From assembly GCA_019347945.1 (NCBI GenBank), contig JAHWKK010000004.1, positions 62,001 through 126,000 on the forward strand: DNA of 64,000 nt, written 5' to 3'. Made by a program: the position numbers and the translations under genes. The notes beneath the pieces are model-generated. The model had not been told where the DNA came from. It saw nothing but the letters and a program-made list of their open reading frames with translations, and did no database searches. This document shows, piece by piece, positions 18,211 through 22,617 of the stretch; within the stretch, counting starts at the first letter, position 1; the number at the start of each line of letters is the position of its first letter. The stretch comes from Acidobacteriota bacterium (GTDB lineage Bacteria; Acidobacteriota; Thermoanaerobaculia; Gp7-AA8; JAHWKK01).

Positions 18211-18972
18211 GTGACTCATCCAGGGAAAGCGCGGTTCGACGTGATCATCTCCGCCCGGAACGAGGCGCCGACCATCGCGGGACCGGTCCAGGCGGCGCTT
18301 TCGACCCCTGGCGTCGGGCGTGTCATCGTCGTCGACGACGGCTCCACGGATGGAACCGGCGAGATCGCCCGCCTTGCGGGAGCCGAAGTCATTCGTCGCG
18401 ACGGCGCCGGGAGCAAGGCGCTCGCGATGCGCGAGGGGGTCGGGGCATCGAGCGCCGACGTGATCCTCTTCTTCGACGGCGACATCATTGCGACCGCTCC
18501 CGAACATCTCGAGGGGATCGCGGCACCGGTCCTCGACGGAACCGCCCCGCTGTCGATCGGAGTGGTCAGCTACGGAGGGATTCTCGACCCACTCCTTCTC
18601 CGCCTTCCGCCGATCTCAGGGCTGCGCGCGATGAAGCGCTGGGTCTTCGAGGACGTACCTCCGGAGAAGCTCCGCGGCTTTCAGATCGAGATCATGATCA
18701 ACGAGGTGATCGCGCGGAGGCGGCTTCCCTTCGCGGTCCGTACGCTGCGCGGCTGCTGCCATCGAACCAAACGCGACAAGCTCGGCCTCGTTCGCGGCTG
18801 GTCTTCGCAGCTCGCCATGGTCGGCGAGCTTCTCGGCTGTCTGAAAGTGGTCCCCCTCTGGACATACGGCTCGTTCCTCGGAAACCTCCATGTCCTGTCT
18901 CCCGTCGTCACCGCAGCTTCCGCGGCTTCTGATGTGGGGGTCCCGGCGCCGACCGGGGAGCAGCCGGGTTGA
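18211..18972 (+). CDS. Family 2 glycosyltransferase
   Basis: This is a 253-residue protein. Its GTG start lies 7 bases after AATAAT at 18198-18203, with no ribosome binding site, so the mRNA may be leaderless. The GT-A fold is clear: FDVIISARNEAPTI, VIVVDDGSTDGT, and the DxD-like DGD in VILFFDGDIIA. Residues 130-200 include GGILDPLLLRLPP and a Glu/Asp-rich region. A weak hydrophobic region follows, suggesting peripheral membrane association. Such enzymes transfer a sugar from a nucleotide or polyprenyl donor to a lipid or glycan; the acceptor is unknown. It is divergent from rtcB across 92 bases. Confidence 0.8.
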   Translation: MTHPGKARFDVIISARNEAPTIAGPVQAALSTPGVGRVIVVDDGSTDGTGEIARLAGAEVIRRDGAGSKALAMREGVGASSADVILFFDGDIIATAPEHLEGIAAPVLDGTAPLSIGVVSYGGILDPLLLRLPPISGLRAMKRWVFEDVPPEKLRGFQIEIMINEVIARRRLPFAVRTLRGCCHRTKRDKLGLVRGWSSQLAMVGELLGCLKVVPLWTYGSFLGNLHVLSPVVTAASAASDVGVPAPTGEQPG

Positions 18973-19102: not shown

Positions 19103-20452
19103 ATGAGCTTCGCCACGGCATGGTCGCTGTTCGTCGATCCGGTAACCGCTGAAAAGAGAAGATTGCTCGACGAGCGCTGGCAGAACCTTCCGCCCGCCGT
19201 GAAGGTCGCGACGCAGGGACTCGGCCAGAAGGCAACCGGCTGCGGCGCGACAATCGGCACTCAGCCAAAGTGTGACTTTGCATGCACCGGCTGTTACCTC
19301 GGTACCGAAGCCAACAGGATTCCCGCGCTGCCGGTCGAAGAAGTCCTCGCTCAGATAGACCGGATTCGCGCGTGGCTCGGACCGAAAAGCAACCTTCAGC
19401 TTACCGACGGGGAGATCACGTTGCGGCCTGCGGACGAGCTCGTCCGTATCCTTTCGCACGCGCGTAAGGTGGGCGCCATCCCGATGGTCATGACGCACGG
19501 CGACAACTTCCGCCGCAATCCCGGGCTTCTGGAGCGGCTGATGACGGAGGGGGGGCTGACCGAGGTCTCGATTCACGTCGACATCACACAGCGTGGGCGC
19601 GATGGCTATCGCTCCCCCAAATCCGAGGTCGAGCTGATGCCGCTGCGCGACGAGCTCGCCGATCTCGTGCGGAACGCCCGGAAGACCACGGGGCTCCGCT
19701 TGCGCGCGGCGACGACGATGACGATCACTTCGCAGAATGTCGGCCAGGTCTCCGACGTCTGCCGCTGGCTGATCCGGAACCGGGACGCGTTCAGCCTGAT
19801 CAGCTTTCAGCCGCTCGCGCAGGTGGGGCGCACCCGTTCCCATCTCGAAGGAGTCTCTTCTGATCAACTCTGGGCGGAAGTGGGGAAGGCAACCGCGGAG
19901 TTTGGAACGCCGATCGGAAACGCGCCGCTCCACTTCGGTCACCCCGACTGCACGCGCTTCATTCCGATGATCGCCCTCGAGGATTCGAAGGGATTGAAGC
20001 TGGTCGAGCTGATCCGCGATCACGAGAAGGATCTCGAGATCATGAAGGAGTACACGGACACCGGGCTGCTCGGCGTGGCGTTCCGGGACGACCGCCCCGA
20101 GGAGATGGTCGGTCGTGCGCTCGGCATGATGCGACAGGCGGGACGATTCATCTTCGGACGTGGCCGTCGCTGGGTGAACGAGAAACTGAAGGAATCGATG
20201 GGGACGTCGTTTGCGCCGGTCCTCGCCCGCGGCCTTCTGCGCCAGCTCCGCGTCGACTCGGTCACCTTCACGAGCCACCACTTCATGGACGCTTCGCAGC
20301 TCGAGACCGAGCGTGGAAAGGAACGGCTGGAGGCGTGCGTCTTTCGCGTTCCGATCGACGACGAGATGGTTCCGATGTGCCGGGTCAACGCGGGCGGCGT
20401 GCGGGAGAAGTTCTACGAAGAGATCACGGCGAAAGCTCACGTCCACGCGTAG
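19103..20452 (+). CDS. Radical SAM enzyme of unknown substrate
   Basis: This is a 449-residue cytoplasmic protein, with GAGGAG about 10 bases before the ATG. The radical SAM cluster motif CxxxCxxC appears as CDFACTGCYLG near residues 57-67, preceded by GCGATIGTQPK. LQLTDGEITLRP near 98 fits the glycine-rich SAM contact region. STIHVDI-like sequence (EVSIHVDITQRGRDGYRSP) and the remaining barrel strands follow. The last 170 residues carry one more Cys (in LEACVFRVP) near the C-terminus but no SPASM-like cysteine cluster. The reaction is unknown; the following YdjY-like gene is the only clue. It is not a close match to MoaA, NifB, HemN or Tes by its flanking motifs. Confidence 0.8.
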   Translation: MSFATAWSLFVDPVTAEKRRLLDERWQNLPPAVKVATQGLGQKATGCGATIGTQPKCDFACTGCYLGTEANRIPALPVEEVLAQIDRIRAWLGPKSNLQLTDGEITLRPADELVRILSHARKVGAIPMVMTHGDNFRRNPGLLERLMTEGGLTEVSIHVDITQRGRDGYRSPKSEVELMPLRDELADLVRNARKTTGLRLRAATTMTITSQNVGQVSDVCRWLIRNRDAFSLISFQPLAQVGRTRSHLEGVSSDQLWAEVGKATAEFGTPIGNAPLHFGHPDCTRFIPMIALEDSKGLKLVELIRDHEKDLEIMKEYTDTGLLGVAFRDDRPEEMVGRALGMMRQAGRFIFGRGRRWVNEKLKESMGTSFAPVLARGLLRQLRVDSVTFTSHHFMDASQLETERGKERLEACVFRVPIDDEMVPMCRVNAGGVREKFYEEITAKAHVHA

Positions 20453-20489
20453 GCAAAGGCTCGCGGTCGTCGGGCTGCTGACGGGCGCC

Positions 20490-21104
20490 GTGGCGCTCGC
20501 TTTCTGCATCTCCTGCAGCTCGGCCGAAGATTCGAAGATTGCCGTCGATCGCTCGCGTCGCGAGATTCGATTTCCGGCGATCGTTCAGATCGATGCGTTC
20601 AGCCGGTCGATGTTCCAGCCGGGCCATCATTCGGTCGTCTCGAAGTACGGCGTCTCTCGCTTCGGCGCGCTGTTGCTGGCCGAGGTGAGCGACCTCGAGG
20701 TTCGACGCGCGCTCGAGTCGCTCGGGGCGGAACCCGGTGACAATCTCGTTCCGGAGAGTTGGACCAAGCGGAACGACCCGGCCGCCACCGCGCCGGACAT
20801 TCGGGTCGAGGGATCTCGCGTCGAGGTTTTCGTCGAGGCCGGCGGGAAGCGGTACCGGCTCGACGAGTTGATCCGCTCGACGCCCGAGTCCGATCTCGAC
20901 CTTCGGTACGGCGGCAACGAGGCCTGGCGCTCACGATTCCGGAGCGGCTGCATCGTCTGCAACTACTCCTGTCCCGGCGGCGCGGTCGGGAATCACACGC
21001 TGACGATTCGCGACGAGGCGACCGAGCGCGTGGTTTTCAGGCTCGCGAACGATTTTCCACTCGCGGATGGCGACCGGGTCCGGGTCGTTCTGCGTCTCGA
21101 GTAG
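20490..21104 (+). CDS. YdjY-domain-like exported protein (start uncertain)
   Basis: The frame encodes a short hydrophobic segment with two Cys (LAFCISCSS). About 180 residues follow, resembling the YdjY domain: GALLLAEVSDLEVRRALES followed by LGAEPGD, then IRVEGSRVEVFVEAGGKRYRL. A Cys pair CIVCNYSCPGG appears near the C-terminus. Upstream codons would give a better signal peptide (RRQR followed by LAVVGLLTGAVAL). However, no ATG, GTG or TTG lies in frame between the radical SAM stop at 20452 and GTG 20490; CTG at 20475 is another option. The true start is therefore unclear and coupling with the upstream gene is likely. YdjY family function is unknown. Confidence 0.6.
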   Translation: MALAFCISCSSAEDSKIAVDRSRREIRFPAIVQIDAFSRSMFQPGHHSVVSKYGVSRFGALLLAEVSDLEVRRALESLGAEPGDNLVPESWTKRNDPAATAPDIRVEGSRVEVFVEAGGKRYRLDELIRSTPESDLDLRYGGNEAWRSRFRSGCIVCNYSCPGGAVGNHTLTIRDEATERVVFRLANDFPLADGDRVRVVLRLE

Positions 21105-21159: not shown

Positions 21160-21222
21160 CTGATCCCTGATCCCTGATCCCTGATCCCTGATCCCTAATC
21201 CCTAATCACTAATCCCTAATCC
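21160..21222. repeat. Heptamer tandem array, nine units
   Basis: There are five copies of CTGATCC followed by CTAATCC, CTAATCA, CTAATCC and CTAATCC. The array runs directly into CTA at 21223-21225, the complement of the hslU TAG stop. Because 7 is not a multiple of 3, the TGA/TAA in each unit stops all three frames on the + strand. The TAG in each TAATCC unit does the same on the - strand. Confidence 0.9.
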
Positions 21223-22617
21223 CTACAAAATATAGCGACTCAGATCGTCGTCGCGGACGATGTCGCCGACGTGATCGCGGACGTAGTCAGCGTCGATCGC
21301 CACCGTCTCGCCGGGACGTTCGCTCGCTTCGAAGCTCAGCGTATCAAGCACCCGCTCCATCACGGTCTGCAGCCGCCGCGCTCCGATGTTCTCGGTTCTA
21401 TCGTTGACGGTGACGGCGATCTTCGCGATCTCCGCAACGGCGTCGTCCGTGAACACGACCGTGAGCCCCTCCGTGGAAAGCAATGCTTCGTACTGCCGTG
21501 TCAGCGCCGCGCGGGGCTCGCGGAGAATGCGGACGAAATCAGCCTCCGTCAGCGCATCGAGCTCGACGCGAATCGGAAAGCGACCCTGGAGCTCCGGGAT
21601 CAGATCCGAGGGTTTCGAAACGTGGAATGCACCGGCGGCAATGAAGAGAACGTGGTCGGTACGGACGATCCCGTACTTCGTGTTGACCGCCGTCCCCTCG
21701 ACGATCGGGAGAAGGTCCCGCTGCACTCCTTCTCTCGAGACGTCCGGCCCCTGCTTCGATTCTCTCCCCGCGACCTTGTCGATCTCGTCGAGGAAGACGA
21801 TGCCGCTCTGTTCGACGCGGTTGACGGCTTCCCTGGCGAGCGAAGACTGGTCGATCAGCTTCGCCGCCTCCTCCTCGATCAGGATCTCCCGCGCATCGCC
21901 GACGCGCATCTTTTGCTTCTTTGTCTTGCCGCCGAAGAGGCCGGGAAGCATGTCCTTCATGTTGACGCCCATCTCCTCGACGCCCTGATTCGTGAAGATC
22001 TCGAACGAGGGAAAGCCCTGATCCCGGACATCCACCTCGATCTCACGGTCTTCGAGACGTCCCTGGTCGAGCCAGATTCCCATCTTTTCGCGGGTCTCGG
22101 TGCGGTCGGTCTCTTCGTTCTGCGGCTGAAAGGCGGGAGCGGGCCGCGAGCGGCCCGGAAGCAGAAGATCGAGCAGACGCTCTCTGGCCGCCTTCTCCGC
22201 CTGGGCGCGCACCTGTTTCGCGCGTTCCTCGCGGACCATCGCGACGCCCAGCTCGGTGAGGTCGCGGACGATCGACTCGACATCCCGCCCGACGTAACCG
22301 ACCTCGGTGAACTTGGAGGCTTCGACTTTCAGGAACGGCGAGCTCGTCAGCCGTGCGAGCCGTCTCGCGATCTCGGTCTTTCCGACGCCGGTCGGTCCGA
22401 TCATGATGATGTTCTTCGGCGAGATCTCTTCACGGAGCTCCGCGCCGAGCTGCTGGCGCCGCCAGCGGTTGCGGAGCGCAATCGCGACCGCGCGCTTCGC
22501 GGCGTTCTGCCCGACGATGTAACGGTCGAGCTCCGCGACGACCCGCTTCGGTGTCAGATCGTGCTCGACCTCCGACTTCTCGCCCGCTCCGACCGACCCA
22601 GGAAGAATGATCGCCAT
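21223..22617 (-). CDS. hslU: HslU, ATPase subunit of the HslVU protease
   Basis: This is a 464-residue AAA+ protein of normal length for HslU. N-terminal [17 protein letters not shown], Walker [10 protein letters not shown] near residue 75, the substrate-gripping pore motif EVGYVGRD, Walker [13 protein letters not shown] and the C-terminal [12 protein letters not shown] sensor-2 region are all present. It ends in a hydrophobic ISRYIL-like tail (DLSRYIL) that docks into HslV. HslU unfolds substrates and feeds them to the HslV peptidase ring. Its ATG follows the hslV stop with no gap. The intermediate domain is present (residues about 110-235). Confidence 0.97.

Follow-up and report, generated by a model that had tools for sequence, protein, structure and literature searches.

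A Tes-like radical SAM subfamily with a recurrent DUF547 neighbour, and a YdjY-domain gene without a standard start codon at its signal-like segment

The radical SAM protein encoded in the window (the whole stretch of DNA that was analysed, 64,000 nucleotides in length, from a bacterium that is probably a member of the Acidobacteriota) belongs to a bacterial subfamily that has no name; among solved structures, its nearest relative is the archaeal tetraether lipid synthase Tes (GDGT-MAS). We consider that this enzyme merits attention for its Tes-like fold, its changed cluster ligand and its recurrent DUF547 neighbour, and that the junction with the YdjY-domain gene located directly behind it is a small annotation puzzle. 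The YdjY-domain gene itself looks like a lineage-specific neighbour and not like the usual partner of the enzyme. The identity of the bacterial enzymes that produce membrane-spanning lipids is presented in PMC8941075 and PMC11868695 as an open question behind lipid palaeothermometers. The coordinates of all the features are collected in Table 1.

Table 1. Positions of the features discussed (window coordinates, except where another contig is named)
Feature	Position	Strand	Evidence or remark
GT2 glycosyltransferase gene	18211..18972	+	Pfam PF00535, 6.7e-15
Tes-like radical SAM gene	19103..20452	+	449 aa, ATG start, Pfam PF04055
CX3CX2C motif (residues 57-64)	19271..19294	+	C57, C61 and C64 in 57/57 rows
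TTG in the YdjY frame, within the radical SAM gene; improbable start	20211..20213	+	
Codon of His392, which aligns with Tes Met439	20276..20278	+	Ungapped 7TOL alignment around HFMD
GTG in the YdjY frame, within the radical SAM gene; improbable start	20313..20315	+	
ACG, candidate non-standard start	20439..20441	+	Without Shine-Dalgarno match
ACG, favoured candidate start	20445..20447	+	8-base overlap with the radical SAM gene; without Shine-Dalgarno match (-2.1)
Cys-type YdjY-domain gene (start is a candidate)	20445..21104	+	NF040466, 63.3 bits (cut-off 50); alignment with relatives and E. coli YdjY; codon-position G+C
Signal-like segment LAVVGLLTGAVALAFCISC	20460..20516	+	Lipobox imperfect, by eye
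CIVCNYSC motif	20949..20972	+	Residues 169-176, counting from ACG 20445
DUF547 gene of the window genome (L132)	9272-10039 of L132 (on contig C6)		Unlinked to the enzyme

Two genes at one junction

Both the radical SAM gene and the YdjY-domain gene are genuine genes. The radical SAM frame, which is closed by the stop codon at 20450-20452, begins with a good Shine-Dalgarno match (-9.1, vs a local mean of -2.2) and has a codon-position G+C of 0.65/0.45/0.81. The YdjY frame is shifted by +1 relative to it and ends at the stop at 21104; its codon-position G+C amounts to 0.68/0.49/0.81 from 20454 to 21101, vs 0.38/0.81/0.68 from 20313 to 20453. Since this frame carries a coding pattern only from the junction on, the two genes are real and YdjY begins approximately at the junction. 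A programmed frameshift leading from the radical SAM gene into YdjY was considered and rejected, as the +1 step required would fall at GCG-TAG, where no re-pairing site was seen by reading, and the YdjY genes of relatives are separate. Between the YdjY stop and an opposite-strand hslU gene we noticed (by reading) a run of TGATCCC/TAATCCC-like repeats (21160-21227).

Family of the radical SAM enzyme

The earlier note had left the radical SAM family unassigned, and our searches agree: no NCBIfam model attained its cut-off, and the Pfam assignment is at superfamily level only. Under their cut-offs, the models for Tes (NF045702; 56 bits, cut-off 450) and TrsS (NF045646; 52.4 bits over residues 45-247, cut-off 490) were matched by the window protein, as well as by 44/57 and 49/57 family rows, respectively. 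Given that TrsS scores nearly as high as Tes and matches more rows, the substrate may not be a lipid. Among solved structures, Tes (7TOL) was the only one matched in the sequence searches (at E ≤ 0.1, or E ≤ 0.01 for profiles), with E-values of 3.2e-9 by sequence and 5e-15 by profile. By using the 57-row alignment as input for AlphaFold2, we obtained a model (mean pLDDT 94.9) for which 7TOL was the best fold match (Z = 28.6, 348 residues, rmsd 3.5, model residues 30-449), followed by 7TOM (Z = 28.3) and, as third entry, by viperin (Z = 17.6); Foldseek again ranked 7TOL and 7TOM as the first two (E = 2e-16).

Seven residues (C47, C57, C61, C64, H280, C283 and H392) are invariant in all the 57 rows, and C412 and C426 are present in 56 (the remaining row being gapped). 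The Cys set is also kept in L042-L047, a remoter sister group from the same class, which has either His or Gln at the place of His392; in this group, DUF547 adjoins the enzyme in L043 only.

A protein encoded on contig C26 of the same genome matched the Tes model more strongly (NF045702, 79.2 bits) and was discarded as a Tes orthologue, since it appears MoaA-like, an identity that we presume from its first residues.

Bacterial Tes homologues, with Acidobacteria among the carriers, were collected by Zeng et al. (2022) at E < 1e-50 with a different Tes query (available part of PMC8941075). As the window enzyme reaches 3.2e-9 against the M. jannaschii chain (with another query and database), it probably lies outside the set described in that part of the source.

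Distribution and the DUF547 neighbour

The enzyme was located in 63 loci by a single genome scan (all of them titled as MAGs), and the tree was built from 56 complete rows, which came from Acidobacteriota, Gemmatimonadota, Pseudomonadota, Verrucomicrobiota, Myxococcota and Planctomycetota, with two left unassigned; the window enzyme groups with Thermoanaerobaculia rows (support 99/93). A DUF547 gene lies within 600 bp of the enzyme in 47/63 loci (on the same strand in 44) and anywhere in the fetched stretch in 51/63, as detected with a search profile seeded with 13 neighbours from these loci and hence not independent of them; the DUF547 identity was confirmed by Pfam for two representatives and in whole genomes. 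Six of the 16 loci without a near DUF547 have a contig end within 1 kb. The fetched stretch contains DUF547 in 6/14 loci of relatives (at least two of those genomes being also among the 63) and in 2/8 additional loci from the phylum sample. At the genome level, DUF547 occurs in 13/14 enzyme carriers vs 31/86 others (Fisher p = 7e-5, kinship ignored).

The window genome also encodes a DUF547 protein, which is close to the enzyme-adjacent DUF547 of locus L036 (275 bits). In two relatives with a close homologue of the GT2 gene (L065 and L066, at 52% and 56% identity) the gene order is GT2-DUF547-radical SAM. The simplest history would be that DUF547 was lost from the window locus and YdjY gained behind the enzyme.

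Judging by eye from their N-termini, the DUF547 proteins are probably exported. The DUF547 model (pLDDT 92.3) had no Foldseek match at E ≤ 0.001, its best fold comparison (Z = 5.2, 14-3-3 proteins) was taken as noise, and by sequence it gave nothing credible under E = 1 among solved structures (best 0.67). Among the open-access papers searched, none names DUF547 together with radical SAM or with TVP38, and the DUF547 papers among the matches listed were (judging by title) mostly plant studies.

Genes for TVP38/TMEM64-type membrane proteins and for disulfide reductases are both found within the fetched stretch in 13/63 loci. A gene for a MauE/DoxX-type small membrane protein (MauE checked by Pfam in L088 only) is placed between DUF547 and radical SAM in L084, L088 and L094, and behind DUF547 in L105. 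The Alphaproteobacteria-type loci L076, L082, L083, L096, L097 and L098 have a YCII-like gene ahead of the enzyme, and behind the DUF547 or the enzyme gene they have one for a response regulator of LuxR type (both checked by Pfam in L082 only).

The YdjY-domain protein

That the partner is of YdjY type, as the earlier note proposed, is borne out by its score above the NF040466 cut-off, and the hydrophobic stretch LAVVGLLTGAVALAFC, directly after the radical SAM stop, has the appearance of a signal, as had been described. The CIVCNYSC motif is real as well: the pattern CxxCxxxCP is present in the window protein, in E. coli YdjY and in all the other 15 Cys-type YdjY loci, which were found with our own Cys-type YdjY profile, the pattern being our own criterion. 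It is absent from six other YdjY-domain proteins of the phylum (L157, L158, L159, L160, L162 and L135); since NF040466 thus includes proteins without CxxCxxxCP, its members may differ in function. Against solved structures the YdjY protein had no match at E ≤ 1, and among the open-access papers searched, judged by title, there was none on the function of YdjY.

The expectation that the radical SAM enzyme and YdjY form a standing pair was not sustained. YdjY adjoins the enzyme in none of the 63 scanned loci, the 14 loci of relatives or the 8 additional loci, and the check for co-occurrence also spoke mostly against a pair, with the enzyme found in 0/21 other YdjY-domain loci (15 with CxxCxxxCP; some on short contigs). 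Among the nearest 100 genomes, YdjY is present in 3/14 enzyme carriers vs 1/86 others (p = 0.008); in the phylum sample (396 genomes, drawn by two samplings with the same settings and size and presumed to be the same genomes) it is present in 2/15 carriers vs 14/381 others (p = 0.12), a count that includes domains with and without the Cys motif. In L048 the YdjY gene is situated behind a disulfide reductase gene. As gene types that accompany YdjY (DedA-type in E. coli, disulfide reductase in L048) also accompany the enzyme in some loci, an indirect link of YdjY to the enzyme is possible, and we regard it as a lead.

Start of the YdjY gene

The claim that no ATG, GTG or TTG precedes the signal-like segment in frame was correct in that none is usable at the signal, and incorrect in that TTG 20211 and GTG 20313 lie in frame further upstream. 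Going upstream, the first stop in the YdjY frame is at 20187; between 20205 and 20520 its standard starts are these two, which would add 78 and 44 residues, respectively, ahead of the ACG 20445 position, and GTG 20490, which falls within the hydrophobic segment. At the local base composition, a run of 58 codons lacking any standard start would arise with a probability of about 9%; what makes it worth noting is solely that a gene ought to begin at this place.

Among the near-standard triplets found at the junction are ACG 20439, ACG 20445, CTG 20475 and CTG 20478. We regard ACG 20445 as the best start candidate, its product consisting of TRRQR, then an 18-residue apolar stretch, then Cys24; a gene starting there would overlap the end of the radical SAM gene by 8 bases. 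Overlaps of this kind are common among coupled genes. In L048, the ATG of YdjY overlaps the stop of the preceding gene, which indicates that overlapping starts occur in the YdjY family; the signals of L048 and L049 are uncharged, which weakens the argument from charge in favour of ACG. GTC 20466 has the best Shine-Dalgarno-like match nearby (-4.1) and was set aside, as it is not a start codon. ACG is not mentioned in the available part of a paper on non-standard starts (PMC11497404).

An ATG, GTG or TTG at or before the signal was found in 15/15 other Cys-type YdjY loci (one of which, L168, contains masked bases) and in E. coli. None of them shares the window junction, so the normal starts of relatives do not show an error in the window. 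None of the 99 other genomes compared belongs to the same taxonomic family as the window genome. The missing start codon is of minor importance and matters mainly for annotation, as gene-calling software with a limit on overlaps would probably choose GTG 20490 and cut off the signal.

Proposed function and alternatives

Our preferred reading, to which we give a probability of about 0.4, is that of a Tes-like enzyme that modifies a lipid or another long hydrocarbon chain, with a DUF547 partner in the envelope and a YdjY read from ACG 20445 (or from an ATG at that place). The enzyme would make a 5'-deoxyadenosyl radical and take a hydrogen from an unactivated carbon of the chain; the carbon radical would be caught on a second [4Fe-4S] cluster, whose ligands are probably C283, C412, C426 and His392; and the DUF547 protein may act on, or deliver, the same compound in the envelope. 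By the simplest account, ribosomes finishing the enzyme gene would initiate YdjY at ACG 20445, or at an ATG if the living strain has one at that place. The reading is favoured by the fold comparison, which Tes leads by far, by the fact that Tes was the sole solved structure found by sequence, and by the recurrence of DUF547 as neighbour (47/63 loci); it is weakened by the replacement of both conserved Tes residues (Met439 and Tyr459), by the lower frequency with which DUF547 adjoins in the Acidobacteriota samples (6/14 and 2/8), by the lack of a Shine-Dalgarno match at either ACG, and by a DUF547 without a fold match.

The substrate may also be of another kind, and an enzyme acting on a thiol-containing peptide or cofactor, closer to TrsS or to another SPASM-like maturase, has a considerable though less than even chance: it would fit the breadth of the TrsS matches (49/57 rows), the 13/63 loci in which the disulfide reductase and TVP38/TMEM64-type genes occur in the fetched stretch, and the few loci in which MauE-type genes adjoin, but Tes is ahead by 11 Z units of all the other solved structures compared (with no TrsS structure among the matches listed), and TVP38/TMEM64-type membrane proteins would suit work on lipids too. 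It is unlikely, in our estimation, that YdjY works together with the enzyme and stands in for DUF547 in the window lineage, since no other adjacency was found in the loci surveyed, the phylum sample shows no enrichment and DUF547 is still present in the window genome; what speaks for it is that YdjY, within the nearest 100 genomes, is more frequent where the enzyme is present, as well as the DedA-type and disulfide reductase neighbours of YdjY that are also near the enzyme in 13/63 loci.

With regard to the junction, an ordinary ATG at 20439 or 20445 in the strain, shown in the assembly with a C for its T through a sequence variant or error, appears somewhat doubtful. The standard starts in all the 15 other Cys-type loci and E. 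coli would agree with it, as would the draft state of the genome (49 contigs), and the change from C to T at either ACG is silent in the radical SAM gene (His as CAC or CAT), so that the living strain may have an ATG; against it, nothing else in the two genes resembles an error, and both frames are intact. A start at CTG 20475 or 20478, as suggested in the earlier note, or at GTG 20313 or TTG 20211 with a long N-terminal extension (given the frame open back to 20187), is quite improbable: CTG 20475 would leave 13 residues before Cys24 and no charge, the Shine-Dalgarno values of the two CTG (-2.4 and -2.5) are set against a local mean of -2.2, and ahead of the junction the codon-position G+C follows the radical SAM frame. 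That YdjY recently lost its start and is on the way out, which would accord with its usual contexts lying elsewhere, with a pairing that is not conserved and with the lack of a standard start, is very improbable, since the frame is unbroken over 219 codons, shows the G+C pattern of coding sequence and retains the Cys motif.

Returning to the preferred Tes-like reading, its broadest version would be a widespread, undescribed bacterial system, present in several phyla, in which the unactivated hydrocarbon chains of membrane lipids are coupled or modified by a Tes-like enzyme with a His-ligated second [4Fe-4S] cluster together with an envelope DUF547 protein, and often with a TVP38/TMEM64 membrane protein and a flavin disulfide reductase, YdjY having joined in the window lineage and being started at ACG by translational coupling; taken as a whole, we hold this to be speculative and rather unlikely. 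Tes makes bonds at unactivated carbons. With its altered cluster ligand and its recurrent DUF547 neighbour, a subfamily seen across six phyla lends itself to direct tests.

Comparison with known systems

E. coli YdjY (b1751; NF040466) resembles the window protein in overall sequence (27% identity), in CxxCxxxCP and in its signal-like N-terminus, but its gene lies between the DedA-family ydjX and ydjZ and has no radical SAM neighbour. TrsS (NF045646) is similar to the window enzyme in its near-Tes score and in the 49/57 rows that match it, and differs in that the score is far under the cut-off; we found no function for TrsS, which is only named in a list in the available part of PMC13188914.

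According to the available part of PMC9433317, the Tes reaction, which joins lipid tails, passes through an intermediate attached to a [4Fe-4S] cluster sulfur; Met439, fully conserved across 1000 archaeal homologues, serves the C-terminal cluster as a labile ligand. Tes (MJ0619; PDB 7TOL, 7TOM; NF045702) shares with the window protein the radical SAM core and the C-terminal auxiliary-cluster domain, and its HFMD stretch and two C-terminal Cys align with it. In contrast, the window protein has His392 where Tes has Met439, and Tyr459 is replaced (its place being Arg415 or Val416, depending on the alignment), with Tyr not among the common residues at either of these columns in the 57 rows. Moreover, C47 is an extra invariant Cys and the first of the window protein, past the Tes positions C73-C80 in the alignment; as no Cys is found ahead of it, the ligands of the rubredoxin iron and of the N-terminal [4Fe-4S] cluster of Tes are missing. 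Since several of the tested features of Tes fail in it, the window enzyme is not a Tes, and we infer that it resembles Tes in its working outline.
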